The notes beneath the pieces were generated by a model, which saw only the letters and a list, made by a program, of their open reading frames with translations, did not search any database and had not been told where the DNA came from. A DNA stretch of 64,000 bases from Vibrio sp. DW001. Its GTDB lineage: Bacteria; Pseudomonadota; Gammaproteobacteria; Enterobacterales; Vibrionaceae. Position 1 is the first letter of the stretch; each line of letters opens with the position of its first letter. Location: contig NZ_CP091975.1 of the NCBI RefSeq assembly GCF_029016285.1, forward strand, positions 1,612,001-1,676,000, given 5' to 3'. The translations under genes and the position numbers were made by a program. This document shows, piece by piece, positions 9,701-25,874 of the stretch.

Positions 9701-12545
9701 GACTTCGATTACAGGTATTCAAAGTAATATGACAGAGCAGAACTCATCTTCGTTCATAAAAAACCAACAGCTTGCTCAGCAGGTACATCAAGCATTCCTT
9801 CAAAGCCGAGAGCAAGGTTTGAAGATGGCTGATGCGTTAATGAAGGCGCAGCTACAGGCGGTGACGTCTCAGGTACAGGCGGAACCAATTTCTGGGCTAA
9901 ATCAGCAACCTGTTGTTCCCGTAGTGCCTCAAAAAAACGTGCCGTCTGCGCCCGTTATCGACAAGCCTATTCGTAAACCATGCATTTGGGATTACGATGA
10001 CTTAGTGGAGTATGCAGAAGGCGATATTGCTAAGGTATTTGGAGCGGATTACGCCGTTATCGACAACTATTCTCGTCGTGTAAGATTGCCTACTACGGAT
10101 TATTTACTGGTATCTCGAGTAACGAAGCTTGATGCAACCATGCTTGAATATAAACCAAGCAGCATGACGACCGAATACGATATTCCGGTTAACGCTCCGT
10201 ATCTGGTTGACGGGCAAATTCCTTGGGCTGTGGCGGTAGAGTCAGGCCAATGTGATTTGATGTTGATCAGTTATCTAGGTATTGATTTTGAAAACAAAGG
10301 TGAGCGAGTCTATCGCTTGCTAGATTGTACTCTGACCTTCTTGGGTGATTTACCTCGTGGGGGAGACACCCTTCGTTACGACATCTCCATCAATCACTTT
10401 GCCCGAAATGGCGATACGCTACTGTTTTTCTTTTCTTACGAATGTTTTGTCGGCGATAAGATGATTCTGAAAATGGATAATGGTTGCGCAGGCTTCTTTA
10501 CTGATGAAGAGCTTGCAGATGGCAAAGGCGTTATCCATACGGAAGAAGAAATAAAGTCAAAAAATCTTGTGGTTAAACAGCGTTTCAATCCGTTGTTGCG
10601 TTGCCCGAAAACCCAATTTGATTATCAAGCTTTGTACCCGTTACTTGATGGGGATATCGCGGGATGTTTTGGGAGCAGCCATCAGTCCAATCGTGCTCAA
10701 CCTTCACTGTGTTTTAGCTCAGAAAAATTCATGATGATTGAACAAGTCAGCCGTGTTGAACTTCAAGGTGGCGCGTGGGGACTCGGTCTTATCGAGGGTC
10801 ACAAACAGCTTGAACCTGACCATTGGTATTTCCCTTGCCACTTTAAAGATGACTCGGTGATGGCTGGGTCATTGATGGCGGAAGGCTGTGGTCAATTACT
10901 TCAGTTCTATATGATGTACTTGGGTCTTCATACTCAGGTAGAAAATGGTCGCTTTCAGCCGTTGGAAAATGCCTCTCAACAGGTCCGTTGTAGAGGTCAG
11001 GTATTACCGCAATCTGCCGTACTGACTTATCGAATGGAAGTGACTGAAATAGGGTTAACACCTCGCCCTTATGCAAAAGCGAATATTGATATCCTGCTCG
11101 ATGGCAAAATCGTGGTCGATTTTAAAAACCTGGGTGTGATGATCAAAGAGGAAGCAGAATGCACTCGCTACGGTCAACGCCTGCAAGCCACGATAACGGA
11201 GGCCACCGTACTGAATGTTAATCCTAAGCCAGTTGCGCAAGAAGCACCAGTATCTACGACTCAAAAGCAAGCCTCTGCTAATGCGCCGCTAATGGCGCAG
11301 GTCCCTGATTTAAATACGGCCCAGAACAAAGGCGTGATTCCGCTTCAGCATGTTGAAGCACCGATAACACCGGATTACGCCAATCGCACGCCGGACACCG
11401 TGCCGTTTACTCCATACCATATGTTTGAATTCGCGACGGGCGATATCGAAAAGTGCTTTGGTCCTGACTTCTCAATCTATCGCGGCATGATCCCGCCACG
11501 TACTCCTTGTGGTGACTTGCAACTGACTACCCGAGTGACCGAGGTTAATGGGACGCGTGGCGACTTTAAGACACCTTCGTCTTGTATTGCGGAATACGAA
11601 GTGCCGCAAAACGCATGGTATTATGACGAAAATAGTCACAGCAGTTTGATGCCATATTCAGTGTTGATGGAAATCTCGTTGCAACCGAATGGCTTTATTT
11701 CAGGTTATATGGGTACAACGTTAGGCTTCCCAGGTTTGGAACTCTTTTTCCGTAACCTAGATGGAAGCGGCAAGATACTAAGAAATGTTGACCTGCGTGG
11801 CAAAACTATCGTCAACGATTCTCGCCTACTTTCAACGGTCATGATGGGAACCAATATCATCCAGAGCTTCAGCTTTGAATTGAGCACCGACGGTATTCCT
11901 TTTTATGAAGGCACGGCCGTATTTGGTTACTTCAAAGGGGATGCGCTAAAGGATCAGCTTGGTCTAGACAACGGGCAGGTGAAACAACCATGGCACGTCG
12001 ATAACAATCGCACGCCGGATGTCAGTATTAACTTGCTCGATAAAGAGAGTCGCTACTTTAACGCACCACTATCTGCAAGCGGTGAGTTGCAGCCCCATTA
12101 TAAGCTCGCGGGTGGCCGGTTGAACTTTATTGATAAAGTCGATATCACTAGTGATGGTGGTAAAGCAGGCCTCGGTTATTTGCATGCTGAACGTACGATT
12201 GATCCGAGTGATTGGTTCTTCCAGTTCCACTTCCATCAAGATCCGGTAATGCCCGGTTCGCTTGGTGTCGAAGCCATTATTGAGCTGATGCAAACCTACG
12301 CGATTAACAAAGATTTAGGCGCGGGTTTCCATTCACCTAAATTTGGCCAGATAGAATCAGAAGTAAAATGGAAATATCGCGGTCAAATAAACCCGTTGAA
12401 TAAACAGATGTCACTGGATGTACATATTACCGCTATCGAAGAAAGAGACGGTAAAACGGTCATTATCGGTGATGCAAACTTAAGCAAAGATGGTCTGCGT
12501 ATATACGAACTATCTGACATCGCTATCTGTATTGAAGAAGCGTGA
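6762..12545 (+). CDS. pfaC: PUFA synthase PfaC: ketosynthase, chain-length factor and two dehydratases
   Basis: PfaC (1927 aa) carries condensation and dehydration/isomerisation functions of the PUFA synthase. The N-terminal ketosynthase has Cys204 in DAACASS, His339 in ECHATGT and His379 in SNLGHLL. A second ketosynthase-like domain has Glu678 (SAAEQS) where the Cys would be, the mark of a chain-length factor. After a Ser/Gln/Pro-rich linker come two FabA-type hot-dog dehydratases: the first around His1360 (CHFKDDSVMAGS), the second around His1823 (FHFHQDPVMPGS), the latter closer to the FabA consensus. The order KS-CLF-DH-DH is the family standard. AAGGAG at 6749-6754 precedes the ATG, which overlaps the pfaB stop. 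Confidence 0.96.
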   Translation: MSSHRQAKIAIVGLANLYPDADTPKTFWQNLLDKKDSRTTLRAEKLGADPEAYQGQQGESDRFYCDKGGYIENFTFDASGYHLPVENFEGLDDSFLWAIDTSRKALLDAGIASDAHILERTGVIMGALSFPTTRSNDLFLPLYHSAVEKALQTTLANPDFLLSPSNDSDRKLNPANGIAAHNASKLVADALGLGSVQLSLDAACASSVYSLKLACDYLNTGKADMMLAGAVSGADPFFINMGFSIFHAYPDHGVSVPFDTNSKGLFAGEGAGVLVLKRLEDAERDGDHIYAVVSGTGLSNDGRGQFVLSPNSKGQVQAFERAYEASDLSPDSMEVIECHATGTPLGDKVELTSMERFFADKLKGSEAPLIGSAKSNLGHLLTAAGMPGIMKMIFGMKEGQLPPGINLVTPLSSPDGLFGAHTLPNKVQPWPDKEGNRQRCAGVSVFGFGGSNAHLLLEEWKGQPNRVTSKTGKDKKQVPQMKVTGLASHFGSLKTIGALSSAIQTGADAFVSLPKKRWKGLDQHPELLSQFGLKSVPQGAYIDQFEFDFLRFKVPPNEDDRLISQQLLLMKVADEAIRDAKLEVGQKVAVLVAMETELEMHQFRGRVNLHTQLSDSLNNMGIVLSDSEYLALEAIAMDSVLDAAKLNQYTSFIGNIMASRIASLWDFNGPAFTISAAEQSVARCIDVAQNLMLQDSLDAVVIAAVDLCGSVEQVILKNRVTPVAATTQDSGWKVGEGAGAIVLVDKHALTNQQKQPNNSYAEISALGFSAMTHSYKLTERLLSQANIPENSVGILEVNQAPESNEPVQLPLMNATMIQASQRLGHCNSASGMASMLHGLLNLNQTSVDSNDKALMVVNISENQCSQLLLCQSVAEAQSLALRVSNDLPTDSKRQLIKQVTLGGRDIYQHVVSTDFSELTAIRQKSAHAKPRVTRKQAAKQPVASSLVNPLQLTRSQATKSPEVSAPVSPLVSQTLAPSHQTSITGIQSNMTEQNSSSFIKNQQLAQQVHQAFLQSREQGLKMADALMKAQLQAVTSQVQAEPISGLNQQPVVPVVPQKNVPSAPVIDKPIRKPCIWDYDDLVEYAEGDIAKVFGADYAVIDNYSRRVRLPTTDYLLVSRVTKLDATMLEYKPSSMTTEYDIPVNAPYLVDGQIPWAVAVESGQCDLMLISYLGIDFENKGERVYRLLDCTLTFLGDLPRGGDTLRYDISINHFARNGDTLLFFFSYECFVGDKMILKMDNGCAGFFTDEELADGKGVIHTEEEIKSKNLVVKQRFNPLLRCPKTQFDYQALYPLLDGDIAGCFGSSHQSNRAQPSLCFSSEKFMMIEQVSRVELQGGAWGLGLIEGHKQLEPDHWYFPCHFKDDSVMAGSLMAEGCGQLLQFYMMYLGLHTQVENGRFQPLENASQQVRCRGQVLPQSAVLTYRMEVTEIGLTPRPYAKANIDILLDGKIVVDFKNLGVMIKEEAECTRYGQRLQATITEATVLNVNPKPVAQEAPVSTTQKQASANAPLMAQVPDLNTAQNKGVIPLQHVEAPITPDYANRTPDTVPFTPYHMFEFATGDIEKCFGPDFSIYRGMIPPRTPCGDLQLTTRVTEVNGTRGDFKTPSSCIAEYEVPQNAWYYDENSHSSLMPYSVLMEISLQPNGFISGYMGTTLGFPGLELFFRNLDGSGKILRNVDLRGKTIVNDSRLLSTVMMGTNIIQSFSFELSTDGIPFYEGTAVFGYFKGDALKDQLGLDNGQVKQPWHVDNNRTPDVSINLLDKESRYFNAPLSASGELQPHYKLAGGRLNFIDKVDITSDGGKAGLGYLHAERTIDPSDWFFQFHFHQDPVMPGSLGVEAIIELMQTYAINKDLGAGFHSPKFGQIESEVKWKYRGQINPLNKQMSLDVHITAIEERDGKTVIIGDANLSKDGLRIYELSDIAICIEEA

Positions 12546-12559
12546 GAAAAGGGTAAATA

Positions 12560-14209
12560 ATGACTATGACGATTCATCAAGCGACATTGAAAAATAAAAA
12601 ACTGTCACCGTGGCCGTGGCAGATTGAAGAAAGCAAAATCCATTTCTCCATTGATACGATGGCTCAGATATTGAAAGATCTTAGTGTAGGTTGTTTTCTG
12701 GTGAACCATCCAGAAAAAAGGCTGGGAATTAGTCAGAGTGCCGATATTGTGTCTGGAGACGAAGTCATTGCCGACAGTGCGCATCCGGTCAGTGCGTTTG
12801 CGCCGGCGCTTGGCACGCAAAGCCTCGGTGACAGTGAGTTTTGTCGAGTGCATGGCGTGAAGTACGCCTACTATGCAGGTGCAATGGCGAATGGTATCTC
12901 GTCAGAAGCGTTGGTTATTGCATTGGGTCAGGCGGGTATACTTTGCTCATTTGGTGCAGCTGGCCTTATTCCATCAAGGGTAGAACAAGCGATACACCGT
13001 ATTCAAACCGCTTTACCAAATGGCCCCTATGCGTTTAACCTGATACACAGTCCTAGCGAACCAGCGCTTGAACGCGGCAGCGTAGAACTGTTCTTAAAGC
13101 ATAACGTCCGTACCGTTGAGGCCTCCGCATTTTTAGGTTTGACACCACAGATTGTTCAATATCGTGCAGCAGGACTTAGCCGCGACGAAAAAGGTGAGGT
13201 CCACATTGCGAACAAAGTCATCGCAAAGGTGAGTCGCACGGAAGTCGCACGTAAGTTTATGGCGCCGGCTCCGGTAAAAATGCTTCAAGGGTTAGTGGAC
13301 GAAGGTCGAATTAGCGCCGAGCAAATGGAGTTGGCTCAACATGTGCCAATGGCTGATGATATTACGGCGGAAGCAGATTCTGGTGGACATACTGATAATC
13401 GTCCTCTGGTTACTCTATTACCGACTATCTTGGCGTTGAAAGATGAGATTCAAGCTGAGTTCCAATTTAAAACGCCATTGCGTGTTGGTTCTGGTGGTGG
13501 CATCGGTACCCCTGATGCCGCGTTAGCCGCCTTTAACATTGGTGCCGCGTACATTGTGACGGGCTCAATCAATCAGGCTTGTATCGAAGCGGGCGCAAGT
13601 GAGCATACTCGTAAACTCCTTGCGACGACCGAGATGGCCGATGTTACGATGGCTCCGGCAGCGGATATGTTCGAAATGGGCGTAAAGTTACAGGTTGTTA
13701 AACGTGGTACGTTGTTCCCGATGCGAGCAAATAAGTTGTATGAAATATACACCCGTTACGATTCTATCGAAGCGATTCCGGCTGATGAGCGTCATAAATT
13801 AGAAACTCAAGTTTTCCGTTCAACGCTTGATGATATTTGGGCCGGAACAGTGGCGCACTTTAATGAGAGAGATCCAAAGCAAATTGCTCGTGCTGAAGGG
13901 AATCCGAAACGTAAAATGGCGTTGATATTCCGTTGGTATCTTGGTCTTTCAAGTCGTTGGTCTAATACCGGTGAAGTTGGCCGAGAAATGGATTACCAGA
14001 TATGGGCGGGCCCTGCTTTAGGGGCATTTAATGCGTGGGCAAAAGGCAGCTATCTCGATAACTATCAGGATCGTCGTGCGGTGGATCTGGCGATGCATTT
14101 GATGCATGGTGCCGCTTATTTAGCACGGGTTAACCTGTTGTCTTCACAAGGTATAAAACTCCCTATCGGTCTTGCACGCTGGAAGCCGACGGAAAAGATG
14201 GCTCAGTAG
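12560..14209 (+). CDS. pfaD: PUFA synthase enoyl reductase PfaD
   Basis: PfaD (549 aa) is the separate FMN-dependent enoyl reductase of the PUFA synthase, related to 2-nitropropane dioxygenases. The TIM-barrel part shows the glycine-rich phosphate-binding segment GSGGGIGTPDAA and a following VTGSINQACIEAG strand. It begins 14 nt after the pfaC stop with an AAAAGGG ribosome binding site; ATG 12560 has good spacing and a second in-frame ATG at 12566 is possible. It is the last gene of the operon, followed by a strong hairpin. The phosphopantetheinyl transferase (pfaE) is not in the window, as is common. Confidence 0.96.
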   Translation: MTMTIHQATLKNKKLSPWPWQIEESKIHFSIDTMAQILKDLSVGCFLVNHPEKRLGISQSADIVSGDEVIADSAHPVSAFAPALGTQSLGDSEFCRVHGVKYAYYAGAMANGISSEALVIALGQAGILCSFGAAGLIPSRVEQAIHRIQTALPNGPYAFNLIHSPSEPALERGSVELFLKHNVRTVEASAFLGLTPQIVQYRAAGLSRDEKGEVHIANKVIAKVSRTEVARKFMAPAPVKMLQGLVDEGRISAEQMELAQHVPMADDITAEADSGGHTDNRPLVTLLPTILALKDEIQAEFQFKTPLRVGSGGGIGTPDAALAAFNIGAAYIVTGSINQACIEAGASEHTRKLLATTEMADVTMAPAADMFEMGVKLQVVKRGTLFPMRANKLYEIYTRYDSIEAIPADERHKLETQVFRSTLDDIWAGTVAHFNERDPKQIARAEGNPKRKMALIFRWYLGLSSRWSNTGEVGREMDYQIWAGPALGAFNAWAKGSYLDNYQDRRAVDLAMHLMHGAAYLARVNLLSSQGIKLPIGLARWKPTEKMAQ

Positions 14210-14316: not shown

Positions 14317-15399
14317 CTACGCCACACAAATACCATATTTTGGAAGCACATCTCTTATGATATCTAACCTGTAAGATTTCAGTGCATCATGGAAGTGTTT
14401 CCAATCTGAACTGAGGAAGCTTTCGCTATAACGATAGGTGATGAGGTCGTTCGATAATGGAGAGGCGACGGCTTTGCCTCTTGCTATCTCTTTCCAACTC
14501 CCTTTACCGCTGACGATAAACGTCAGTTTAACGGCGCCAAACCCAAATCTACCTTCTGAAATCCATTCAAGCCATTGCTTGTGCCTCACCTCACCTTCGT
14601 CGTCTCTAAATGTTGATAAAGCCTTTTTGATCAGGGCCAACTTATCTTCTGGCATATCATTCTGACTATCTAAATCCATGGATTCGTCATCGGCAAGATA
14701 GCACCTGATGACTTTGTACATTTGGTTAGACGCCTTTAGAAAATCGTCCGTATTATCTCTCACAACCCGATCGCCATTTCCGGTTTTATAATCCCATTTT
14801 ATGTACGGGCGATCGGGAAAAGATAACGCAGGACCATGGCCTAACGGAGAGACGGAGGATATCCCCCAGTTCAAAATGCTGTCCTTTACTCTGTCGAGCA
14901 AACTACCGTCATCATTGGTATTGATTTCGGTCACTTCATTGATTTCATGGCTGACTCCGGCAAAGCCATAATGTGCAAAAGTGTCCGCGTAGACATGCAT
15001 GGCTATACCTAAAATATGCAGGCCAAATGGGCTCTGGCGATATTTAGCGACAGCGCGCAACATATCTCGAGCGACAGGGCTGTCTGGTTTGCATACCAAT
15101 CTTTGGATGAACCCTCCTTCTGGAACGGATTCGTTTGTTTTTCCTTGATTGCCAGGTAAGAAATGGAACGGGATCCACGCCAAATGGTTTGAGAGTTCGT
15201 TACCATTTCTGTAGTCAAGCATCTTATGAGCGGATGAAATACGGTTGAACATCGCCCCATTACTAAATCTGACTGGTTCTGAATTTGTCGCCTCGTCAAC
15301 ATATTGGGCGCAGTAGGCCAGTTTTTCAGCCTGTTCATGTTCCATACCCGCGAATCTTGCAACGACGTACGTTAATGTATGATGTCCATCTATTGGCAT
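14317..15399 (-). CDS. DUF6765-like protein
   Basis: A 360-residue soluble protein without a signal peptide or membrane segment. The N-terminus (MPIDGHHTLTYVVARFAGM) resembles the DUF6765 family, which starts with an MxIDxHxxxTY-type stretch. Conserved-looking His/Asp pairs follow, for example HAYADTFAHYGFAG-like residues around 130-145 (HVYADTFAHYGF), reminiscent of the metal-binding helices of zinc-dependent phospholipase C-like folds, but I do not see enough to call activity. It is a single gene, convergent with pfaD and divergent from the sugar operon. The start has only a weak GAGA ribosome binding site. Confidence 0.7.
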   Translation of the reverse strand: MPIDGHHTLTYVVARFAGMEHEQAEKLAYCAQYVDEATNSEPVRFSNGAMFNRISSAHKMLDYRNGNELSNHLAWIPFHFLPGNQGKTNESVPEGGFIQRLVCKPDSPVARDMLRAVAKYRQSPFGLHILGIAMHVYADTFAHYGFAGVSHEINEVTEINTNDDGSLLDRVKDSILNWGISSVSPLGHGPALSFPDRPYIKWDYKTGNGDRVVRDNTDDFLKASNQMYKVIRCYLADDESMDLDSQNDMPEDKLALIKKALSTFRDDEGEVRHKQWLEWISEGRFGFGAVKLTFIVSGKGSWKEIARGKAVASPLSNDLITYRYSESFLSSDWKHFHDALKSYRLDIIRDVLPKYGICVA

Positions 15400-15881
15400 A
15401 TATTTCTCAGTGATTGTTTATTTTTTATACAGTAATGGGTTAGTACATGACTTTCTCCACCTGCGGTCACACTTCTTTAATGAAAACTGTCTTAACTTTT
15501 TGATATTTATGTTTTAAATTTCGGTACTAAACGCCACCGATTTCAACATTTATAGAGGTATTTCTGTTGACACTTTCTCTCTACGGAATTAAGGAGACAG
15601 AACCATGCAGAACTGATTGAGGATAATAATCAGTTCAATATAGGGACCAACTCTGACACCCGTCAGGGGTTTTCAATGAGTGCATAATTGCCCAGTAGTA
15701 TAAAAAACAACCAACTTGTGATCTGCGTTGCATTTATTCCTGCGTCTCCTTGGTATGGTCGTGGTCATATCGAGAAGGCTCTGCTTTACGCTAGAAATAA
15801 GGTTTGGTCTTAACGGTGAGATGTAACGTTATAAATTGTACGACTCCCTATAAATCTATTCGGTGAAAAAGGATTATGGAC
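15400..15881. promoter_or_regulatory. Divergent intergenic region upstream of the amino-sugar conjugate operon
   Basis: This 482-nt gap must hold promoters for the minus-strand gene and for the ABC operon on the right. A possible -35 (TTGACA at about 15567) is present. Two small hairpins are visible: ACTGATT/AATCAGT at about 15612-15633, and CTGAC-ACCC-GTCAG at 15653-15666 followed by GGGGTTTT, which looks like a short attenuator or terminator. An 8-bp palindrome TAACGTTA lies at about 15823-15834, within 60 nt of the first gene. I could not recognise a GntR/DasR-type operator with confidence. No credible gene. Confidence 0.4.
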
Positions 15882-17105
15882 ATGAAAAAACACCTTTTAG
15901 CACTTGTGCTGGCTTCATTATCAACAAATAGTTTTGCTGTTGATATCGAATACTGGCAATACAAGTTCGATGCTCGCGTTAAAACTGTGGATGCTCTAAT
16001 TGAAAAATTTGAGAAGCAAAATCCAGAAATAAATGTCAAACACGTAACTTTTCCGTATGCCCAATATCGTACCAAAATGGCGGCTGCAATGTCCGCAGAC
16101 AAAGGTCCAGACGTGCTTCAACTGTATTATGGTTGGGTGCCGGATTACTATACCTCTGGGTTGATCCAACCTTTATCTGAAAAATATATATCCAGTAAAG
16201 AGATTGATGAGCAGTTCTACTCTTTTGTTCAAGGTATGAAATACGATGGTCAGTATTATGCTGTACCTACTGCCGTGAGAACGCTTGCTCTTTTTTGGAA
16301 CAAAAAACTCTTTAAAGAAGCCGGGTTGACTGAGCCACCTAAAACATTAGACGAACTCGTTAGTTACAGTAAAAAACTCACTAAGCGGGATGATAATAAC
16401 AACCTGCTTTCAGCTGGTCTCACTGTGGACCTAGCGGAGCAAGACCACCATTGGTGGCGAGAAGTCTTGATTCGCCAGATGGGTGGTGTTCCTTATTTAG
16501 ACGATTATCAAACGACTAACTACACCAACGAAGCCGGTGAAAAAGCCTTTGCGTTTATGACGGATCTTTTAACCAAACATGAGGTTACTACACCTCGATT
16601 TATGGATGAAGGTCAAGCGGCGTTTAAAGCGGGTCGAGCAGCAATGCATATCGATGGGTCTTTCCGACTTTCTACCTACAATAAAGCGCGTCGTTTAGAG
16701 TGGGGCGTGGCTGAACTGCCTTCCCATAATGGCATCAAATCGAACTTTTCTTCTTATTGGGTAAATGCAGTTAGCAAGAAAGCCCAAGGAGAAAGCCGTG
16801 ATGCGGCTGAGAAATTTGTCGCGTTCTTAACATCTGAAGATGCAATGCAACTTTGGTTGGACAATGTAGGTGAATTACCAGCACGTCGAGCGGTAGCAGA
16901 AAGACCAGAGAATGTTACCCACGAGCAATATGGACCGTTTATCAAAGGGCTAGGCTATGCTCACACGACGAAGTTCAAATCAGAGGCGTCGCAACGTCAA
17001 ACATTAATCAATGCCTTTGATAGCGTTGTGCTACAAGGGGTTTCAGTGAAGGATGCGCTATTGAAAGCCTCTGCTGAAGAACAGAAGATTTTGGACAAAA
17101 AGTAA
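15882..17105 (+). CDS. Sugar-type ABC transporter substrate-binding protein
   Basis: A 407-residue periplasmic solute-binding protein of the family-1 carbohydrate type. Residues 1-19 form a signal peptide (MKKHLL.. to NSFA), after which the mature protein begins VDIEYWQYKF; the segment DKGPDVLQLYYGW is typical of the sugar-binding family. I choose ATG 15882 because AAGGA at 15869-15873 is 8 nt upstream; the ATG at 15876 is only 2 nt from it. The protein opens a seven-gene operon with two permeases, a lyase, an ATPase, a deacetylase, a regulator and a glucosamine kinase, so the ligand is inferred to be an amino-sugar conjugate. The actual ligand cannot be read from sequence. Confidence 0.9.
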   Translation: MKKHLLALVLASLSTNSFAVDIEYWQYKFDARVKTVDALIEKFEKQNPEINVKHVTFPYAQYRTKMAAAMSADKGPDVLQLYYGWVPDYYTSGLIQPLSEKYISSKEIDEQFYSFVQGMKYDGQYYAVPTAVRTLALFWNKKLFKEAGLTEPPKTLDELVSYSKKLTKRDDNNNLLSAGLTVDLAEQDHHWWREVLIRQMGGVPYLDDYQTTNYTNEAGEKAFAFMTDLLTKHEVTTPRFMDEGQAAFKAGRAAMHIDGSFRLSTYNKARRLEWGVAELPSHNGIKSNFSSYWVNAVSKKAQGESRDAAEKFVAFLTSEDAMQLWLDNVGELPARRAVAERPENVTHEQYGPFIKGLGYAHTTKFKSEASQRQTLINAFDSVVLQGVSVKDALLKASAEEQKILDKK

Positions 17106-17116
17106 TCCGCCATCAT

Positions 17117-17140
17117 GAGTAGGTATCTATATACCTACTC
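17117..17140 (+). repeat. Perfect intercistronic hairpin after the binding-protein gene
   Basis: GAGTAGGTAT pairs perfectly with ATACCTACTC around a CTAT loop. There is no U tract, so it is unlikely to stop transcription fully. Its place, 12 nt after the binding-protein stop and before the permease, is the usual location of an mRNA-stabilising or processing hairpin that raises binding-protein levels over permease levels. It also overlaps an upstream in-frame ATG of the permease, which argues against that start. Confidence 0.75.
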
Positions 17141-17159
17141 TCTCTATGGAGACGTAAAT

Positions 17160-18074
17160 ATGAATGTTGCAGAAAACGTAACACCAGTGCGGCGTGGTTT
17201 GACTATCCAGCAAAAAAAAGCCATTTGGGCGTGGTTATTTCTTACTGTGCCAATAATATTTTTTGTTGTTGTTCGTTTTTATCCAACGTTCGATTCATTC
17301 TATATTTCACTCACAGAATGGAATATTGTTGGCGATAAACTGTATGTAGGCTTAGAAAACTACAAACGGCTTTTTTCCGATCCTGTTTTTTGGATCGTCC
17401 TTTCTAATACGTTTGAGTACTTGATACTGGGAATGCCAGTATCGTTACTATTGTCTTTCACTATTGCCTATAATCTGGATAAAATCCGCTTCGGTCATAC
17501 CTTTCTTCGTGCTTGTTATTTTGTTCCTTTTCTTACAACCGCCGTCGCGATGGCTTGGGTTTGGCGTTGGTTTTATCAAGCAGCGCCGATTGGTTTCTTT
17601 AATAACGTTCTTATTGATCTGGGTTTGCACCAGATGCCATTTTTGCAATCCACGACTCAAGCTTTGCCTTCGATACTCCTTCCTGCAATTTGGGCGGGTC
17701 TAGGATTTCAGATCCTTATCTTTATGGCTGGGCTCCGTTCTGTACCGACAAGCTATTTAGAAGCGGCGAAAATAGACGGGGCAGGTCGCTGGCAGGTATT
17801 AAAAGAGATTACTATCCCTCATCTTTGGCCAACCATCGTTTTTCTTGTGGTGATGAGTACTATCGGTTTCCTTCGCATCTTCGATCAAGTATTCAATATG
17901 ACCGTCGATGGTCAAGGAGGACCGGTTAACTCCGCTCGTCCTCTGGTTTTGCATATCTATCAATCCGCTTTCGCTGATTTTGAGATGGGATATGCAGCTG
18001 CTCAAACGGTTGTATTGTTCGTCATTTTACTGTTTATCACCTTCATCCAATTTTCACTAATGAGGAAGAAATAA
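17160..18074 (+). CDS. Sugar-type ABC transporter permease (MalF-like)
   Basis: Inner membrane permease of 304 residues with six predicted hydrophobic segments and the cytoplasmic EAA loop (YLEAAKIDGAGRWQVLKEITIP) that docks on the ATPase. I start it at ATG 17160, with GGAG at 17148-17151 and 8 nt spacing; the longer in-frame start at 17115 lies inside the intercistronic hairpin and has no ribosome binding site. It pairs with the next gene as the heterodimeric channel of a carbohydrate uptake (CUT1-type) importer. Confidence 0.92.
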   Translation: MNVAENVTPVRRGLTIQQKKAIWAWLFLTVPIIFFVVVRFYPTFDSFYISLTEWNIVGDKLYVGLENYKRLFSDPVFWIVLSNTFEYLILGMPVSLLLSFTIAYNLDKIRFGHTFLRACYFVPFLTTAVAMAWVWRWFYQAAPIGFFNNVLIDLGLHQMPFLQSTTQALPSILLPAIWAGLGFQILIFMAGLRSVPTSYLEAAKIDGAGRWQVLKEITIPHLWPTIVFLVVMSTIGFLRIFDQVFNMTVDGQGGPVNSARPLVLHIYQSAFADFEMGYAAAQTVVLFVILLFITFIQFSLMRKK

Positions 18075-18905
18075 ATGGCCAATATAAAAACGATGCCAGA
18101 CATCAAAAAAATAGTCATATGGACCATTTTATTTGTCGGTGCTCTAGGAATGATAGTGCCACTGATATTTATGTTTTCTACCTCCCTAAAAGTTGGTGAA
18201 GAGGTATACAACCTTAGCTTGATACCTGCCGAACCTACCCTAGAGAATTATGTGTATCTTTTTGATAATTCGGAGTTTTTCACATGGTTTTTCAACTCAT
18301 TTGTTGTAGCCATCGGGGTGACAATAAGTGTTCTGTTTTTCGATTCGCTTATCGGTTACACATTGTGCAAATTTGATTTTCGAGGTAAGAAAATCATCTT
18401 TGTTGCCATTCTATCTACTATGATGATCCCGACGGAAATGCTCGTCATTCCTTGGTACATCATGTCCAAGAATTTCGGCTGGTTAGATACCTACTGGGGA
18501 GTGATGTTTCCAGGAATGATTTCAGGTTTTGGTGTTTTTCTAATGAAACAATTTTTTGAAACCGTACCGGATGATTATATTCATGCGGCACGAATTGATG
18601 GACTTAGCGAGTTTGCCATATGGTGGAAGGTTGCCATGCCGATGGTGGGGCCCGCTTTATCTGCATTGGCGATATTTACTTTTCTAGGAAATTGGACCGC
18701 ATTTTTATGGCCGATGATCGTGATCAATGATCCCAACATCTATACCGTGCCTGTTGGATTAGCTTCTTTTTCTGGTGAGTTCATTACGGAATGGGAAATG
18801 ATAATGGCAGGTGCAAGTGTTGCAACGATACCAACACTTTTGGTATTCATATTATTACAGAAATATATTGTCCGTGGCGTTGTAATGGCTGGACTTAAAG
18901 GATAA
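18075..18905 (+). CDS. Sugar-type ABC transporter permease (MalG-like)
   Basis: Second inner membrane permease (276 aa), with six predicted membrane segments and the EAA-type loop YIHAARIDGLSEFAIWWKVAMP. Its ATG immediately follows the stop codon of the first permease and a GAGGAA ribosome binding site lies in the end of that gene, so translation is coupled. The C-terminus MAGLKG is characteristic of MalG-like CUT1 permeases. Confidence 0.92.
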   Translation: MANIKTMPDIKKIVIWTILFVGALGMIVPLIFMFSTSLKVGEEVYNLSLIPAEPTLENYVYLFDNSEFFTWFFNSFVVAIGVTISVLFFDSLIGYTLCKFDFRGKKIIFVAILSTMMIPTEMLVIPWYIMSKNFGWLDTYWGVMFPGMISGFGVFLMKQFFETVPDDYIHAARIDGLSEFAIWWKVAMPMVGPALSALAIFTFLGNWTAFLWPMIVINDPNIYTVPVGLASFSGEFITEWEMIMAGASVATIPTLLVFILLQKYIVRGVVMAGLKG

Positions 18906-18910
18906 ATAAC

Positions 18911-20413
18911 ATGATAGATAATTCTGTATTCCCATCCCCTGTTTATAAAGAAACGGTGTTGGCGCCTCTCTTTGAGGGTTCAAAAAAGCATTTTAAACAA
19001 GGGCACTTAGCGATTGACCAAGCCCACTGCATTATGTTGGTTGAACAGGGGATTCTGTCACCTCAAGAAGGAAGTGATATTCTCAATGCGTTGGATGAAA
19101 TTCTGCAAGAGGTCAATTTTGATGAGCTTGAGTACACGGGTGAATTTGAAGACTACTTTTTCTTTATAGAGCATTGTTTAAAGCAGAAGCTCGGTGCTGA
19201 TTTGGCCGGGCGACTTCATACTGGTCGGAGCCGAAACGATATCGACCATACGCTGTTCAAGCTCAACCTCAAACAGCGCCTTTTTACGTTGGATAGCGAC
19301 CTGACGCAACTGACGACAACACTGCTCGATGTGTGTGAGCTCAATTATGAAACGATTGTCTTAGCATATACGCATGGTCAGCCCGCACAACCGACAACCT
19401 TTGCCCATTACCTTGCGGCCCTTGTTGAGGTGATGCACAGGGACAGGCAACGCCTTTTTCATAGCTTAGAGATTGTCGATCTTTCTCCTATGGGCGCAGC
19501 TGCGATTACTACGTCCGGGTTTAATCTTTCTCGAGACCGAGTGGCGGAGTTATTGGGATTTCTTAAACCTCTACAAAACTCCTATGGCTGTATCTCTTCT
19601 TGTGATTACATCACGTCAGTCTACAGTGCGCTGAAATTGTTATTTATCCATATCAGTCGATTTGTACAAGACATGGCTCAGTGGAGTAGCTTTGAAACCG
19701 GCCATCTATACGTTCCGAATTCACTGGTACAGATCAGTTCTATAATGCCGCAAAAGCGAAACCCTGTCCCCATCGAACATATGCGTCTCATTTGTTCTAA
19801 AGGCGTTGGTCTCTGCGATACGATTGTCAACGCAATGCATAACACCCCCTTTACGGACATGAATGATAGTGAAAGCGAGACGCAACAGGTTGGGTATCAA
19901 GCCTTTGATAACAGCCACCGTTTGTTGTCTTTACTTAACACCTTTATCGGTTCGGTCAGTATCAACCAAGACAGGGTAATGGATCACCTTGATAAGAGCT
20001 GTGCCACCATTACTGAGTTAGCCGATACGTTGGTTCGCAAAGAAGCGCTGTCCTTTAGGCAAGCACATGAAGTCGTTGCGGATATCGCTAATTATGTGGT
20101 GAGACATCAGTTGAGTCTGCAGACTGTTCCGGTTGATGTGTTCTATTCCTTATTTGAGCAGCATATTGGTCGGCCCAGTCAATTGACGGAATCTGAGCTA
20201 CGTTTTTATGCCTCGGCAAAAAACTTCATTGACGTGCGTAAAGGGTTCGGTGGTCCTGCTCCAATAGAAATGAAGAAATCGGTGTCGAAATATAGGGAAG
20301 AGTTACAGCATCTAAGTGATCAATGGGCATCGATTCAGACGTTCAGTGTGGAAGCGGAAAAGGTACGTTTGCAAGCCGTGAATGATGTAACGTCTAAACA
20401 GCAGAGGGGATAG
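18911..20413 (+). CDS. Argininosuccinate-lyase-family lyase in a sugar-catabolic operon
   Basis: A 500-residue member of the fumarase/aspartase superfamily, closest in motifs to argininosuccinate lyase: HTGRSRND at 103-110, [10 protein letters not shown] with His155, and the signature loop [10 protein letters not shown] at 276-285. These enzymes eliminate fumarate from a C-N (or C-O) bond. The usual N-terminal WGGRF-type motif of ArgH is absent, the Gln after RSRND is Ile, and no arginine genes are nearby; instead it lies 5 nt after a permease and 2 nt before the ABC ATPase. I infer a catabolic lyase acting on an imported substituted dicarboxylate, not arginine synthesis. It could be annotated argH by homology, which I think would mislead. 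Confidence 0.85.
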
Positions 20414-20415
20414 TC

Positions 20416-21531
20416 ATGGCTGAAGTATTATTGAAAAACATCTCTAAATCATATGGTAAAACTGAGGTAATCAAGACTCTGGATTTATCGATAAAAGATC
20501 GTGAATTTATCGTTCTTGTTGGACCTTCTGGATGCGGAAAATCAACCTTACTTAGGATGATTGCTGGCTTAGAAGAGATTACGCATGGTGAGCTGTATAT
20601 TGGGAATCAATACTCCAACGAGGTTGAACCCAAAAATCGAAACATCGCGATGGTTTTTCAAAACTATGCACTTTATCCGCATTTAACCGTTAAAGACAAT
20701 ATGTCTTTTGGTTTACGTGCTGCAAAAATGGATAAAGCCGAGATCGAAAGGCGGGTCGCTAATGCCGCAGATATCTTGGGTGTGACTCATTTACTCCAGC
20801 GAAAGCCATCAGAGCTGTCTGGAGGGCAAAGCCAAAGGATCTCTATGGGACGAGCTATCGTTCGAGATCCCGAAGTGTTTTTATTCGACGAACCTTTGTC
20901 GAATCTCGATGCGAAACTGCGTGCCAACATGCGAGTAGAGATAAAAAAATTGCACCAGAGGGTAAAAACGACGTCCATATACGTCACCCATGATCAAGTA
21001 GAAGCGATGACGCTTGCCGATCGAATTGTCATTCTTAAAGAAGGTGATATTCAGCAACTTGGCACCCCTATGGATGTGTACCACACGCCAGCCAACATAT
21101 TTGTTGCCACCTTTATTGGCAATCCACCGATGAATATCCTTAGTGGCACACTTAAACGTGACACCGAAAACTGGTGTGTAGACTTACCTGATTGCGAGAG
21201 TATTCCATTCCACGTGGAATACGATCTAGATGAATACAAAAACCTTGAGGTTAAGCTGGGCATCCGTCCGGAAGACATTCGAGTACTCAAAGTCGACGAG
21301 CAAGCAAATGACCATGAAAAAGTGTATTGCGCACACGCTACAGTGGTTGAACCTTTGGGTGCGGATACCACCGTTTTTACGGAAGTTGCGGGTGTAGAGA
21401 TCAAAGCGATAGCAAACGGTCGTCAGTTTATTCGTTCTGGAGATTCGATAAAAATTGCTTTTGATACAAGGCATTTGCATCTGTTTGATGTTGTGACAGA
21501 GAATCGAATTGTAGGGACACAACGCGATTAA
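20416..21531 (+). CDS. ABC transporter ATPase (MsmX/UgpC family)
   Basis: Cytoplasmic ATPase of 371 residues that energises the two permeases. Visible are Walker [10 protein letters not shown] (36-44), Q-loop [10 protein letters not shown], signature LSGGQ (134-138), Walker B VFLFDEP with Glu159, and the switch His in YVTHDQ. The C-terminal ~130 residues form the OB-like (TOBE) regulatory domain of carbohydrate importers. It starts 2 nt after the lyase stop with GAGGGGA upstream, so lyase and ATPase are co-translated, which ties the lyase to the transport system. Confidence 0.94.
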
Positions 21532-21587
21532 TATCAAGTGGCGTCAATGTAGCAAAATAGTCTAAAAGAATAGTTTGGAGAGAAATT

Positions 21588-24038
21588 GTGCATTTAACAG
21601 GTAATAAGCGGAAAAAACCCATTTCAAATAAAGTCGGCTTCACTGCTCCCGATTCACTATGGTTACAAACGAATGCCCTCTCTGCAACGTTGACTTTTAT
21701 GCAGACAGGCGCACACCCTGATGATGAAACATCCCCAGCTCTTGCTTATCTGGCGAGAGAGGTTGGGGTGAAGGTCGTTTACTGTTGTGCTGTTCGGGGA
21801 GAGGGTGGGCAAAACAATATTGGTTCGGAAAAAGAGACTGCCCTTGGTGTTTTACGTACGAGAGAGATGGAACAGGCCGCCTCTAACATTCCTATGGATC
21901 TTTATTGGCTTAATACAGAGCTTGAAGGCGCTATTCGTGATTTCGGGTTTTCAAAAAGTAAAACGGACACGCTTAAACATTGGGGAGAGGACAGGCTGAT
22001 CGAATCGTTAGTGCGCTCTATCAGAACGATCAAACCTAATGTAATTTGTCCTACATTTCTTGATGTAGAAGGGCAGCATGGTCATCATCGAGCGGTTACT
22101 GAGGCCACGATCAAGGCGTATTCACTCGCCGCAGATGAAACCGCCTACCCAGAACATCTGATGCAAGGGCTAGATATTTGGCAAGCAAACCAGTTACTTC
22201 TTCCTGCTTGGGGGGGGGGAGGGACCTGCTACGATGACCAAACCCCTCCACCATCAATGGACTTTACTCTTCCGACAGATTCTATTTTAAGAAAATGGAA
22301 AATGAGTTGTTTTCAGCTTGGAGAGGAAAGCCGTCAATTCCATCAGACACAGCAGATGGGGTTGGAATTAGACGCAAATATTGGAGAAAAAGCACGCTTT
22401 CATATTGTGAGTAATTGCTTTGAGGCCAATAAAAATAACAGTTTAGGTGGTGGTGTTCCACTCAGTTTGGATGCTTGGGCAGAGTGGTATCATGAGCAAC
22501 CTTGCGGAAAAACATTGGCAAGACTCGCTCAACAGTGTGAGCAGATTAGGAGTCATTATCCTGATCAACAGCAGATGATATACAACGTGATAGCAGCCCT
22601 TGAAATAACAGAGGACTTGGTTCTAACCGACCCCTATTTGAAAGAGCAGTTGTTGATAAAAAAAATGCAGTTAACCTCTTTACTGGCGAACTTAGCCGAT
22701 CTTACGTCTCGTGTTGACTTGGCAACGGACCTTATGTGCTGTGAACAACTCGTTCCTTTTACATATTCAGTGCTGAATAATGGTGTGCATGAGGTAAAAA
22801 ACTTAACGTTACGACTGTTTCAACAATCTGGAGAGCTTATCTATGAGAATGAGATTGGCCCTGTTGTTCGGAATGAAACGCTTACACATCACAGCCAGTT
22901 TACAGCACCAACGCGTATTTTCTTCCCCTATCAACAACGATTTATTGATGCATGTGATTATGGATCCCTACGCGGCGAAATCAGTTTTCTTATACTGGGT
23001 GTAAAGGTCACGCAGAAGATTGCGATGCCAACCACGGTTGTTAGACCAAAAGTGAGCCTGCTTAGCGTAGAGCCGAACCGCTATCTCAATCTTAGAAAAC
23101 GATTCGATTTCGATATTTCGTTGCAATTGAGTTGTCTTGATAGCCGCATTCATTCGCTTGATGTCTCGCCTACGTTACCGACAGGCTGGAAATCAGAGCC
23201 TTCAAAGATAACCCTTGATGTTACGGAATCCGCGAATCAAGATTTCCAATTCAAGATAATCACACCAGTAGGCACTGAACCGGGTCGATATGAAATCGCA
23301 GTGGGAGCAAAAAATAGTGCCGAATGTTGGCGTTCAAGTTTCCAGACGATTCAATACCCCCATATACAAGAGACGGGATTTTCGGTTCCTACAAGGGTGG
23401 TTGTGGAAGCGGTTGATTGTGAATTACCAGCATCAAGAATTGGGTGTTTCCTAGGGACAACAGACAATTATTTACGTCAATTGTTCACATTAGGGTTTGA
23501 AATAGAATCAATAGATAATCTTGATATGGATACACTGATTCGATTTGATGTTCTGTTAGTTGGTAGTTGTGCCTTCGCTTCAATCAGCGGTTACCCAGCA
23601 CTCAGCTCGTGGGTCGAAAATGGCGGTCGTTTAATCACCTTGTACCATCGTCCTGACGATAACTGGCAACCTCCTGCACAACTGACCATTGGTTCGCCTT
23701 CGATGCGTTGGCGGGTAACTCAGGCGGATAGCCCCGTGATTGCGCTTCAACCCGATTCTGAGATTATGCTGGAGCCTAACTTACTCACGGATAAAACGTG
23801 GCAGCATTGGCGAAAAGAACGGGGTCTTTATTTTATTAGAGAATGGGGAAGTGTGTATAAACCCTTGTTAAGAATCTTTGATGAAGACGGTACCGCATTT
23901 GATGGTATATTACTTTATGGTTGTATAGGAAAAGGGCAGCATATTCACTGTTCTTTATCGGTGGGGCATCAGCTTGAAAATACGGTTTCAGGCGCAGCAT
24001 CATTTGTTGCCAATTTGCTGAATAAGAAAGAAATATAA
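21588..24038 (+). CDS. Long PIG-L/LmbE-family deacetylase with C-terminal extension
   Basis: An 816-residue protein with an N-terminal zinc-dependent PIG-L (LmbE) deacetylase domain (about 36-290): the metal motif AHPDDE at 42-47 and the second ligand region GQHGHH with His164, His166 and His167. This family removes acetyl or other acyl groups from GlcNAc-type amino sugars (GlcNAc-PI, mycothiol and bacillithiol precursors). The remaining ~500 residues look like beta-sandwich modules followed by a class-I glutaminase-amidotransferase-like alpha/beta domain (VLLVGSCAFASISGYPALSSW). No signal peptide is present, so it acts in the cytoplasm. The start is GTG with GGAG 7 nt upstream. A run of ten G at codons 208-211 is a slippage hot spot. 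With the glucosamine kinase downstream the expected product is a free or substituted glucosamine. Confidence 0.88.
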   Translation: MHLTGNKRKKPISNKVGFTAPDSLWLQTNALSATLTFMQTGAHPDDETSPALAYLAREVGVKVVYCCAVRGEGGQNNIGSEKETALGVLRTREMEQAASNIPMDLYWLNTELEGAIRDFGFSKSKTDTLKHWGEDRLIESLVRSIRTIKPNVICPTFLDVEGQHGHHRAVTEATIKAYSLAADETAYPEHLMQGLDIWQANQLLLPAWGGGGTCYDDQTPPPSMDFTLPTDSILRKWKMSCFQLGEESRQFHQTQQMGLELDANIGEKARFHIVSNCFEANKNNSLGGGVPLSLDAWAEWYHEQPCGKTLARLAQQCEQIRSHYPDQQQMIYNVIAALEITEDLVLTDPYLKEQLLIKKMQLTSLLANLADLTSRVDLATDLMCCEQLVPFTYSVLNNGVHEVKNLTLRLFQQSGELIYENEIGPVVRNETLTHHSQFTAPTRIFFPYQQRFIDACDYGSLRGEISFLILGVKVTQKIAMPTTVVRPKVSLLSVEPNRYLNLRKRFDFDISLQLSCLDSRIHSLDVSPTLPTGWKSEPSKITLDVTESANQDFQFKIITPVGTEPGRYEIAVGAKNSAECWRSSFQTIQYPHIQETGFSVPTRVVVEAVDCELPASRIGCFLGTTDNYLRQLFTLGFEIESIDNLDMDTLIRFDVLLVGSCAFASISGYPALSSWVENGGRLITLYHRPDDNWQPPAQLTIGSPSMRWRVTQADSPVIALQPDSEIMLEPNLLTDKTWQHWRKERGLYFIREWGSVYKPLLRIFDEDGTAFDGILLYGCIGKGQHIHCSLSVGHQLENTVSGAASFVANLLNKKEI
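22210..22219 (+). repeat. Ten-G homopolymer inside the PIG-L deacetylase gene
   Basis: Ten consecutive G residues, followed by A and three more G, encode Trp-Gly-Gly-Gly-Gly at residues 208-212 within the catalytic domain. The frame is open as given. Loss or gain of one G would truncate the protein shortly after, so this tract could be phase-variable or could be a source of sequencing error. Confidence 0.9.
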
Positions 24039-24052
24039 ACAAGGGTTTGGTA

Positions 24053-24835
24053 ATGGATAAAATGTTCAATTCGACATTACTTGATGCACTGAAAGTGGAC
24101 ACATCGTCCCCTGGTATGCTTTATCAGAAACTGGCCAGCAATATAAAAATGGCCATTGAAAAAGGGATCCTGTCGGAGGGAGAGTTTCTTCCACCTCAAC
24201 GAAATTTGGCCTCTGATTTAGATGTTTCTCGTGTCACTGTTTCTAAAGCGATAGATGAACTCGCTAAGCAAGGCGTTGTTAAACTGATTCCGCGTCAAGG
24301 TGTTCAGATTGAACCCTACAACGACTATTCTCCTGTCCCGCCTAAATTGCATCTTTCTGACCAGTATAATTTTACCAAAGATATGCAAGCGAGAGACATG
24401 AAGCCTTCGACTCATTGGATAACAAAAGAAAATTGCCTAGCCAGTACTCAAGAAGCCCTTGCGTTGGGCATTCCTCAGAATAGTCAGGTAGGGCATTATT
24501 GGCGATTACGTTTTGCTGACGACAAACCCCTAGCGATCGAGGTTGCTTGTGTACCTTCTAGCGTCATAGCCGATAGCGGTGAAGTGGACGATTCTCTATA
24601 TGACACGTTGAAGTCTAAAGACTCGTTACCAATAAGAGCGATGCAAACCATTACCGCCCGTCCTGCGGACAAACGTACGGCTACGTATTTAGAGGTGCCA
24701 GAAGGGAGCGCTGTTTTGTATATCGAACGTAGAGGCTTTGATAGCGTTGACCGCTGTGTTGAATATACGCGTTATTGGTATCTGGGTGACCGATATTGTT
24801 TCATTGCTGATATGACGCTTGATGTGAATGAATAA
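24053..24835 (+). CDS. GntR-family transcriptional regulator (HutC/UTRA type)
   Basis: A 260-residue regulator with an N-terminal winged helix-turn-helix (PPQRNLASDLDVSRVTVSKAIDEL at about 45-68) and a C-terminal UTRA effector-binding domain (YIERRGFDSVDRCVEYTRYWY). HutC-type GntR proteins usually repress an adjoining operon and are released by a phosphorylated sugar or pathway intermediate; DasR and NagR, which respond to GlcN6P/GlcNAc6P, belong here. I use ATG 24053 with CAAGGG upstream; a TTG at 24047 is the alternative. The gene is internal to the operon, implying autoregulation. The operator could not be located by eye. Confidence 0.9.
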   Translation: MDKMFNSTLLDALKVDTSSPGMLYQKLASNIKMAIEKGILSEGEFLPPQRNLASDLDVSRVTVSKAIDELAKQGVVKLIPRQGVQIEPYNDYSPVPPKLHLSDQYNFTKDMQARDMKPSTHWITKENCLASTQEALALGIPQNSQVGHYWRLRFADDKPLAIEVACVPSSVIADSGEVDDSLYDTLKSKDSLPIRAMQTITARPADKRTATYLEVPEGSAVLYIERRGFDSVDRCVEYTRYWYLGDRYCFIADMTLDVNE

Positions 24836-24876
24836 CGTGTTATTGCAAGTAAACCACAGACGTTAAGATAGGTGAT

Positions 24877-25752
24877 ATGACTTTGTATTTGGTTGGTGTT
24901 GATGGCGGTGGAACCTCTTGTCGAGCTCGGATTCGCACTCAAGAAGGGATCCTTGTTGGTGAAGCGAAAAGTGGTAGCGCAAATATTCTGCTTGGTATTC
25001 AAGTTGCGATGAGTTCTATCATCGAATCCATCACTGAAGCAGCCTACTTTGGTGGTTTAAGTGAGTCAATCTTTCCCCAAATGCATATTGGATTGGCATT
25101 AGCAGGAGCGGAACAGAAATCGGTTTGGCACGACTTCATGAATCAACCTCATCCTTTTGCCAGTATGACGTTAAATACCGATGCCTACGGTGCGTGTATT
25201 GGTGCCCACAATGGCGAGACCGGTGCGATTATGATCGCGGGTACTGGGTCTTGCGGTATTTTTCTTCAGAACGGAAAGCAACACGTTGTTGGAGGAAGAG
25301 AGTTTCCAATCTCGGATCAAGGGAGTGGTGCTATCATGGGCTTACATTTGATTCAAAAAACCTTGCTTGCTGAAGATGATATTGGCGTAAAAACACCGCT
25401 TTCGGAGCATGTTATGGCGCATTTTAATCACGATGCAGATTGCATCGTTGAATGGTCAAAAAGTGCGCTTCCGTGTGATTATGGTCAATTTTCACCTGCG
25501 ATATTTCGTTATGCGCAATCAGGTGATGAACTCGCTATTGACCTACTAAAACAGACTGCCCATGATATTGAAATGTTTCTTGTCGCACTAAACAAGAAAG
25601 GCGCATACCAGATATGTTTAATGGGGAGCATCGCAGAGCGAATGAAACTCTGGCTCTCACCACCAGTACAACAATGGATTGTTGAGCCACAATTTGATGC
25701 AATTGAAGGTGCACTGATGTACGCGGGTAAAAAAGAGCATAATCTATTTTAG
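24877..25752 (+). CDS. gspK: Glucosamine kinase (BadF/BadG/GspK family)
   Basis: A 291-residue sugar kinase of the ASKHA fold. The phosphate-1 motif VDGGGTS lies at 8-14 and the second phosphate-binding motif is IMIAGTGSCGIF; the DQGSGAIMG segment and the tail EGALMYAGKKEHN closely resemble the Vibrio cholerae glucosamine kinase GspK as I remember it. The enzyme converts glucosamine plus ATP to glucosamine 6-phosphate, which NagB would pass into glycolysis. In Vibrio the known gspK lies in a chitin-disaccharide cluster; here the neighbours are a lyase and a deacetylase, so this may be a second copy or a relocated gene. Last gene of the operon, 41 nt after the regulator. Confidence 0.9.
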   Translation: MTLYLVGVDGGGTSCRARIRTQEGILVGEAKSGSANILLGIQVAMSSIIESITEAAYFGGLSESIFPQMHIGLALAGAEQKSVWHDFMNQPHPFASMTLNTDAYGACIGAHNGETGAIMIAGTGSCGIFLQNGKQHVVGGREFPISDQGSGAIMGLHLIQKTLLAEDDIGVKTPLSEHVMAHFNHDADCIVEWSKSALPCDYGQFSPAIFRYAQSGDELAIDLLKQTAHDIEMFLVALNKKGAYQICLMGSIAERMKLWLSPPVQQWIVEPQFDAIEGALMYAGKKEHNLF

Positions 25753-25845: not shown

Positions 25846-25874
25846 AAGTCCACCCTTGTTAGGTGGACTTTTTT
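25846..25874 (+). terminator. Intrinsic terminator after the amino-sugar operon
   Basis: A perfect 9-bp stem AAGTCCACC/GGTGGACTT with a 7-nt loop runs into TTTT, 93 nt after the gspK stop. The convergent permease gene ends 18 nt further, so it may serve both directions, though the plus-strand U tract is the better one. Confidence 0.88.

Follow-up and report, generated by a model that had tools for sequence, protein, structure and literature searches.

Argininosuccinate lyase (ArgH) and EDDS lyase share a fold family, the catalytic loop SSxMPQK, the TH and RSRND motifs and an inferred fumarate elimination with a lyase (hereafter the operon lyase) encoded in a 64,000-nucleotide stretch of the Vibrio sp. 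DW001 genome (contig NZ_CP091975.1, positions 1,612,001 to 1,676,000; hereafter the window). However, unlike ArgH and EDDS lyase, the operon lyase is encoded within an ABC-transporter operon, and its arginine-side residues are replaced. The same operon encodes a PIG-L hydrolase, which has the HPDD metal motif and N-acyl-glucosamine chemistry in common with bacillithiol-conjugate amidase (Bca) and the N-acetylglucosamine-malate deacetylase BshB as described in PMC4101496, but it is 816 residues long with a long C-terminal part, matches the named thiol models weakly, and occurs in hosts that, where tested, lack BshC. Shewanella-type N-acetylglucosamine (GlcNAc) utilization provides the best models, NagK (SO3507) and NagB-II (SO3506), for the window kinase, the kinase of one related locus (L156) and six deaminases linked to operon lyases; however, these scores are under cut-off, the lyase and PIG-L are joined to them, and no NagA-type gene was found among the eight window genes by Pfam search. 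Pathways for Amadori products, such as fructoselysine (frl) and fructose-asparagine (fra), also combine a kinase and a SIS-type sugar-phosphate enzyme for the use of a sugar-amino acid conjugate, but the SIS protein at a related locus (L032) matches NagB-II (313 bits) and hardly the FrlB deglycase (27 bits). Because NagB-II is the best match of all six linked SIS proteins, an Amadori pathway with an FrlB-type deglycase was not adopted as the preferred explanation.

The operon comprises eight genes on the + strand (15876-25752 of the window, whose numbering is used for it throughout). The original prediction, made from the letters of the DNA, described one operon with a CUT1-type importer, a lyase gene that follows a permease gene after 5 nt and precedes an ATPase gene by 2 nt, an 816-residue PIG-L protein, a GntR/UTRA regulator and a GspK-type kinase, and the open reading frames (ORFs) as well as the Pfam and NCBIfam profiles used for family assignment agree with it. 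The combination of a solute-binding protein (SBP), two permeases and a MalK/UgpC ATPase in a single operon is that of a CUT1 carbohydrate ABC importer. For the kinase, placement in the BadF/GspK family held, but the specific assignment did not, and "GspK-type" is a family placement only. The operon brings together known families for the uptake of a sugar in a combination that is not described, and a new lyase activity is predicted for it. The original prediction knew of no described pathway that joins these parts, and none that pairs PIG-L with an argininosuccinate lyase, nor any catabolism of bacillithiol and GlcN-malate, was found in the papers searched, partly by titles and opening lines of abstracts among those listed, most subscription journals lying outside the search.

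The best explanation for the whole is a catabolic operon for a glucosamine conjugate, which we offer tentatively and with slightly less than even confidence, the reactions, the order of steps and malate being inferred. The ABC importer would take up an N-acyl-glucosamine joined to a four-carbon dicarboxylate, PIG-L would remove the N-acyl group, the lyase would eliminate fumarate from the dicarboxylate and free glucosamine, the kinase would form glucosamine-6-phosphate, and NagB would convert the latter to fructose-6-phosphate and ammonia. The likeliest substrates may be of the glucosaminyl-malate type, including bacillithiol, its S-conjugates or disulfide, GlcNAc-malate, and GlcN-malate. PIG-L might then act like Bca and free cysteine or a cysteine conjugate, which in many relatives could be exported by a linked EamA transporter.

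Six Lyase_1 proteins are encoded by the window genome (5.46 Mb, two contigs). Against TIGR00838 (cut-off 279.5), an ArgH fusion protein scores 667 bits, the product of a second ArgH-like gene 513 bits and the operon lyase 303.2 bits, and in 15 of 15 genomes, all chosen for holding an operon lyase, a true ArgH (592-667 bits) is present besides the operon lyase (281-313 bits). The operon lyase is about 28-32% identical to most ArgH-type matches in Vibrio-order genomes. In a careful tree of 59 rows (57 different), ArgH and ArgH2 form one side of a branch (support 100/99) without operon lyases; the operon rows are undivided in only 42% of bootstrap trees, owing to the place of the outgroup, whose branches are extremely long, and the root of this tree was not used. 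In a quick tree without outgroup, for which support is SH-aLRT only, the 34 operon rows lie on one side of a branch (99), the 18 ArgH/ArgH2 rows do likewise (99), and operon and Deinococcus rows together form one side of another (97). The operon lyase is outside the ArgH clade in both trees.

Alignment of 15 ArgH and 34 operon lyases reveals that the superfamily core is kept (H103, T104, R106-D110, T154, H155, S276, S277, K282, and N284; at least 93% per column), and the operon lyase has the catalytic loop and fumarate-side residues expected of the aspartase/fumarase superfamily. Six other ArgH residues, D287, K311, Y317, K319, Q322, and K325, correspond to V286, H310, D316, N318, E321, and Q325 in operon lyases, and the columns of D287, K311, Y317, Q322, and K325 likewise reach at least 93% in the 15 ArgH and the 34 operon lyases. 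Compared with the ArgH of the same genome, the window lyase has thus lost the arginine-side ligands Y317, Q322 and K325 (D316, E321 and Q325 in their place), which we take to be residues 321, 326 and 329 of human argininosuccinate lyase and to have this role. Of these six replacements, the lyases of two Deinococcus clusters have all except E321 (V286, H310, D316, N318, and Q325). According to PMC12363623, six residues of EDDS lyase, including D290 and Y320, are located 4-6 A from the substrate; D290 aligns with V286 and, with a gap allowed for, Y320 aligns with about D316. The pattern HNxPxxDxND is present in 119 of 120 operon-type and 118 of 120 Deinococcus-type lyases among those listed, one miss being a fragment, and the ArgH-type pattern was found in none of these 240. 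Lyases from Haladaptatus (L031) and Geminicoccaceae (L034), in which both the signature and a linked PIG-L are absent, were treated as outsiders. Taken together, these sequence comparisons indicate that the operon lyase is a paralogue distinct from ArgH, with intact fumarate-side and replaced arginine-side residues; in agreement with the original prediction, it is neither the only ArgH of its genome nor inside the ArgH clade.

Many public records label operon lyases as argH or argininosuccinate lyase (e.g., L027, L030, and L167). Databases may use this name because the TIGR00838 cut-off is narrowly passed, and widespread misannotation of the operon lyase as ArgH is likely, suggesting that another enzyme stands behind many database entries with the name argininosuccinate lyase.

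We then considered whether the gene set is a conserved unit, using 88 loci, a biased set made up of 8 plasmid loci (two of them distant outsiders) and the 80 genome loci whose lyases were most similar, and counting neighbors within 9 kb of the lyase that matched baits with more than 55 bits. Permease B was found in 84, the ATPase in 83, permease A in 81, PIG-L in 71, a ROK regulator in 66 and a PfkB kinase in 61 of these loci, the latter two usually standing where the window has GntR and BadF. The SBP was best matched by that of Aminobacter in 74 loci and by that of the window in 5. In the soil bacterium Aminobacter sp. MSH1, the block is located on plasmid pAM01. Beyond the baits, an EamA cluster was present in 37 loci and LysR-like proteins (named by eye) in 11, at varied positions, and the remaining neighbor families among those listed in 4 loci or fewer each. 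Most of the 80 genome loci are alphaproteobacterial by name, together with some Granulosicoccus and one SUP05 cluster bacterium.

As an independent check of linkage, 385 genomes were drawn evenly from the class of a Microvirga (G062). Twelve of them encode the lyase (E <=1e-100) and eight encode PIG-L (E <=1e-60), and all eight PIG-L genomes fall within the 12 and carry PIG-L on the contig of the lyase (hypergeometric P 4e-14, uncorrected for relatedness). A local PIG-L under that threshold is also present in G427, and in G298 PIG-L is on another contig. These results support the view that transporter, lyase and PIG-L represent one conserved functional unit, more than chance would give; the operon is also not split in all relatives. 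In three genomes (G537, G441, and G614) the lyase and PIG-L genes are divergent neighbors that no CUT1 genes separate; nearby is a peptide-type SBP_bac_5 protein, whose best model is GsiB (glutathione) in G441 (103.8 bits) and G614 (113.6 bits) and NikA in G537 (155 bits), all well under cut-off. The operon has probably been spread horizontally. The operon is rare in the genus of the window: among 227 genomes of this genus, 2 encode PIG-L, and a search of 61 related genomes gave an operon-type lyase in 2, the window genome being included in both counts.

A related cluster is held by two Deinococcus plasmids. On that of D. ficus, the order is ROK, lyase, a long PIG-L with NEW3 and CBM9 domains, SBP, permeases, a short PIG-L, and PfkB, and the annotation of D. 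wulumuqiensis resembles this order. The long Deinococcus PIG-Ls match the window PIG-L weakly (63-65 bits), and the best model of the short one of D. ficus is MshB (160.6 bits, cut-off 224). The window SBP is 41-43% identical to the SBPs of the two clusters versus 21% to an unrelated CUT1 SBP (L113). Two further Deinococcus plasmids carry the lyase, SBP and permeases only. On a Thermus oshimai plasmid (L163 9971-12925), where no lyase is annotated within about 9-10 kb, a CUT1 SBP 45% identical to that of the window is found with permeases.

The freed sugar is probably glucosamine, a part of the proposal in which we have good confidence on genomic context. In 7 of 105 loci, a glucosamine-6-phosphate deaminase is encoded no more than 6 kb from the lyase. 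Six of these are NagB-II by profile (L032 as above; L065, L080, L098, L108, and L156 with 257-317 bits; all under cut-off; on the opposite strand in L098 and L156), and one, in Paroceanicella (L167), is NagB-I (TIGR00502, 242 bits, exceeding the cut-off of 236.9). The presence of two unrelated deaminase types near the lyase points to glucosamine-6-phosphate. No NagB is encoded in the window operon itself; contig 2 of the genome encodes a PF01182 protein (209 bits). The kinases of these loci fall into three families that show no detectable similarity to one another, namely BadF (window), PfkB and ROK, and even the PfkBs of Parasedimentitalea and D. ficus are only 25% identical. The tally used 97 loci, i.e., the 105 with lyase minus L028, L029, L031, L034, L151, L162, L164, and L166 (Deinococcus, outsiders, and duplicates); baits found PfkB in 64, ROK in 4 and BadF in 1, the window and its same-genus relative G022 not counted. 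The other BadF-type kinase of the window genome (L149 8883-9827), 30% identical to that of the operon, adjoins genes that by eye are of NagZ-type hexosaminidase and MurQ-type etherase.

The window PIG-L belongs to the LmbE-like/PIG-L hydrolases, since it has HxDD and a distal His and scores above the Pfam cut-off; H43-P-D45-D46-E47 and H164/H167 are the same in all 31 relatives that were aligned. Its residues from about 590 to 816 are strongly conserved with many invariant columns and have no Pfam match at E 0.001. PIG-L is nearby in 76 of the 97 tallied loci, and an EamA exporter (more than 60 bits to that of Aminobacter) is present in 44 of these 76 versus 0 of the 21 loci without PIG-L, eight of which are short or cut contigs (L035, L042, L052, L067, L076, L079, L093, and L110). 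Because the EamA exporter goes with PIG-L, an amino-acid-like acyl group appears more plausible than acetyl, which is the less likely of the two. The EamA association and the GsiB/Nik-like alternative binding proteins fit the glucosaminyl-malate family, though malate is not proven by them. The lyase step appears to be the core of the pathway and deacylation an add-on, since some lyase genomes have no detectable PIG-L. Two PIG-L-less operons are adjoined by genes of metallo-beta-lactamase fold (L103 6020-6889 and L168 7970-8818), possibly an alternative hydrolase, yet too few to use.

A conjugate of glucosamine with a dicarboxylate from which fumarate can be eliminated seems fairly likely, and a malate or bacillithiol-type substrate is possible, if somewhat doubtful. 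Thus, within the N-acyl-glucosamine dicarboxylate originally proposed to yield fumarate and glucosamine-6-phosphate, the sugar and the elimination gained support from the linked deaminases and the lyase residues, whereas malate, the C-O bond, the acetyl group and the order of steps did not. The more specific view of a widespread pathway feeding on the bacillithiol family, in which import would be followed by cysteinyl-glucosamine amidase cleavage, a new glucosaminyl-malate fumarate-lyase activity, and glucosamine phosphorylation, is rather unlikely on present evidence. Recycling of the hosts' own bacillithiol was rejected on the basis of BshC, which was detected in none of 15 host genomes and in neither of 2 Deinococcus plasmid records (Deinococcus chromosomes not searched), with positive controls in B. 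subtilis, Thermus, and Deinobacterium; because the tested hosts lack BshC, use of bacillithiol made by others rather than synthesis may be involved. Aspartylglucosamine, the N-glycan remnant, was set aside because its amide nitrogen is on a carbonyl carbon, which would allow no elimination to fumarate.

Several observations weigh against a glucosaminyl-malate pathway. That glucosaminyl-malate is the natural glucosamine-dicarboxylate class known to us is the only direct reason for malate, and bacillithiol synthesis in the hosts was judged from BshC rather than from bshA and bshB. The window PIG-L is weak to curated thiol enzymes and does not reach their cut-offs (Mca 36.5 bits, cut-off 277; BshB2 27.7 bits, cut-off 195; MshB 27.4 bits). 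EamA transporters are common and varied, and a PIG-L-less locus, L168, does have an EamA protein under the bait threshold. In seven of eight genomes with a PIG-L-less lyase locus, some of them metagenome-assembled and maybe incomplete, no PIG-L match was detected genome-wide at 1e-15 (the remaining genome has PIG-L elsewhere; G062 served as positive control). Baits found no kinase in 28 of the 97 loci, and the PfkBs score far under the cut-offs of their best models (ribose-1-phosphate kinase with 86.9 bits for Parasedimentitalea and ribokinase with 70.6 bits for D. ficus). No NagB was found within 9.5 kb in 98 of 105 loci by the baits used, and NagB is present in 2 of 76 loci with PIG-L versus 5 of 21 without (Fisher P 0.005, uncorrected for relatedness). 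Because NagB is commoner where PIG-L is absent, the version with PIG-L could yield another product. Finally, the nearest solved relatives of the operon lyase by sequence, ArgH and EDDS lyase, are C-N lyases, and the proposed reaction is a C-O elimination.

The substrate may instead be another amino-sugar conjugate: the lyase would release an unsaturated acid other than fumarate, or the sugar would differ from glucosamine, and the acyl group removed by PIG-L would be an unrelated one. The superfamily covers a wide range of reactions, models that match the operon lyase under cut-off include XcbC (196.6 bits) and XcbD (67.2 bits) of coenzyme M synthesis, and PfkB is the kinase that the baits detect most widely; nevertheless, we consider this unlikely in view of the retained fumarate-side residues and the two deaminase types. 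The main rival to glucosaminyl-malate is a C-N linked glucosamine-aspartate conjugate, such as N-(1,2-dicarboxyethyl)-glucosamine (formally the Heyns product of fructose and aspartate), from which the lyase would yield fumarate and glucosamine directly. Such a compound suits the C-N chemistry of the solved relatives, would make deacylation unneeded for the five PIG-L-less loci with NagB near the lyase, and fits PIG-L-less loci at least as well as glucosaminyl-malate does. However, it leaves PIG-L, present in 71 of 88 loci, without a clear job, since the amino group already bears the dicarboxylate, and bacterial use of such a compound was not seen among the papers listed (a weak test); its probability seems low. 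That the operon lyase is a second ArgH of the usual kind, with a merely accidental link to a sugar importer and a deacetylase, is highly improbable and was rejected. It passes the TIGR00838 cut-off, but a separate ArgH is present, the tree groups are separate, the arginine-side ligands are replaced, and the linkage is maintained throughout a class, a second phylum having a related cluster.

The proposed pathway predicts that Alphaproteobacteria of the sea and soil, together with a few Vibrio and Deinococcus, have a lyase activity and a nutrient pathway that are both new. Polaribacter is marine. N-methyl-bacillithiol has been found in Polaribacter, and this form and bacillithiol are probably the most widespread low-molecular-weight thiols of bacteria, as stated in PMC6282198. 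With a bacillithiol-like substrate, the environmental fate of a major bacterial thiol would become testable; if true, a catabolic route for what has been called the most widespread thiol of this kind would exist in organisms that, where tested, do not make it, hidden by the ArgH annotation.

Table 1. Features of the operon and its flanks in the window
Feature	Position	Strand	Basis
Upstream intergenic region, presumed promoter/operator	15400..15875	+	476 nt between divergent DUF6765 gene and SBP gene
CUT1 solute-binding protein (SBP)	15876..17105	+	SBP_bac_8 142.7 bits, SBP_bac_1 126.3 bits
ABC permease A	17115..18074	+	BPD_transp_1; top NCBIfam model UgpA, under cut-off
ABC permease B	18075..18905	+	BPD_transp_1; top NCBIfam model UgpE, under cut-off
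Argininosuccinate-lyase-superfamily lyase, 500 aa, proposed fumarate-eliminating glucosamine-conjugate lyase	18911..20413	+	Lyase_1 and ASL_C2
Lyase catalytic loop, residues 276-287; ArgH Asp replaced by Val286	19736..19771	+	Alignment
Lyase signature, residues 310-321, replacing ArgH K-(A/G)-LPLAY-x-KDMQ	19838..19873	+	Alignment
ABC ATPase, UgpC/MalK type	20416..21531	+	NF008653 499 bits, cut-off 432 exceeded
PIG-L (LmbE-like) hydrolase, 816 aa, GTG start, long conserved C-terminal part	21588..24038	+	PIG-L residues 40-177, 66.9 bits
GntR/UTRA regulator, TTG start	24047..24835	+	UTRA 111 bits, GntR 53.5 bits
BadF/GspK-type amino-sugar kinase	24877..25752	+	BcrAD_BadFG 168.7 bits; NagK_SO3507 234.7 bits, under cut-off 370
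Terminator-like hairpin at operon end, after kinase	25846..25870	+	9-bp stem and T-rich tail

The upstream intergenic region has 91% mean column identity to that of G022. The longest inverted repeat within it (15610-15636) lacks conservation in G022, and no operator was assigned; a promoter scan was uninformative, with 18 sites found versus 21.0 expected, and 15 terminator-like sites were found in the region versus 9.8 expected by chance. Divergent from the operon is a DUF6765 protein (327 bits; 14317-15399, - strand), with a similar ORF at that place in G022. Further upstream (6762-14209) are genes of polyunsaturated fatty acid (PUFA) synthase type, encoding a PfaD_N protein and a protein of 1927 residues that has both ketoacyl synthase and FabA domains, and similar PUFA-type ORFs are present upstream of the operon in G022 (L150). 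On the other side in G022 (L150 17313-18920), an NAD(P)H-dehydrogenase-like and a LysR-like ORF (named by eye) stand between the kinase and a Trp/Tyr-permease-like ORF. Because these two ORFs are absent from the window, the right edge of the operon appears to vary.

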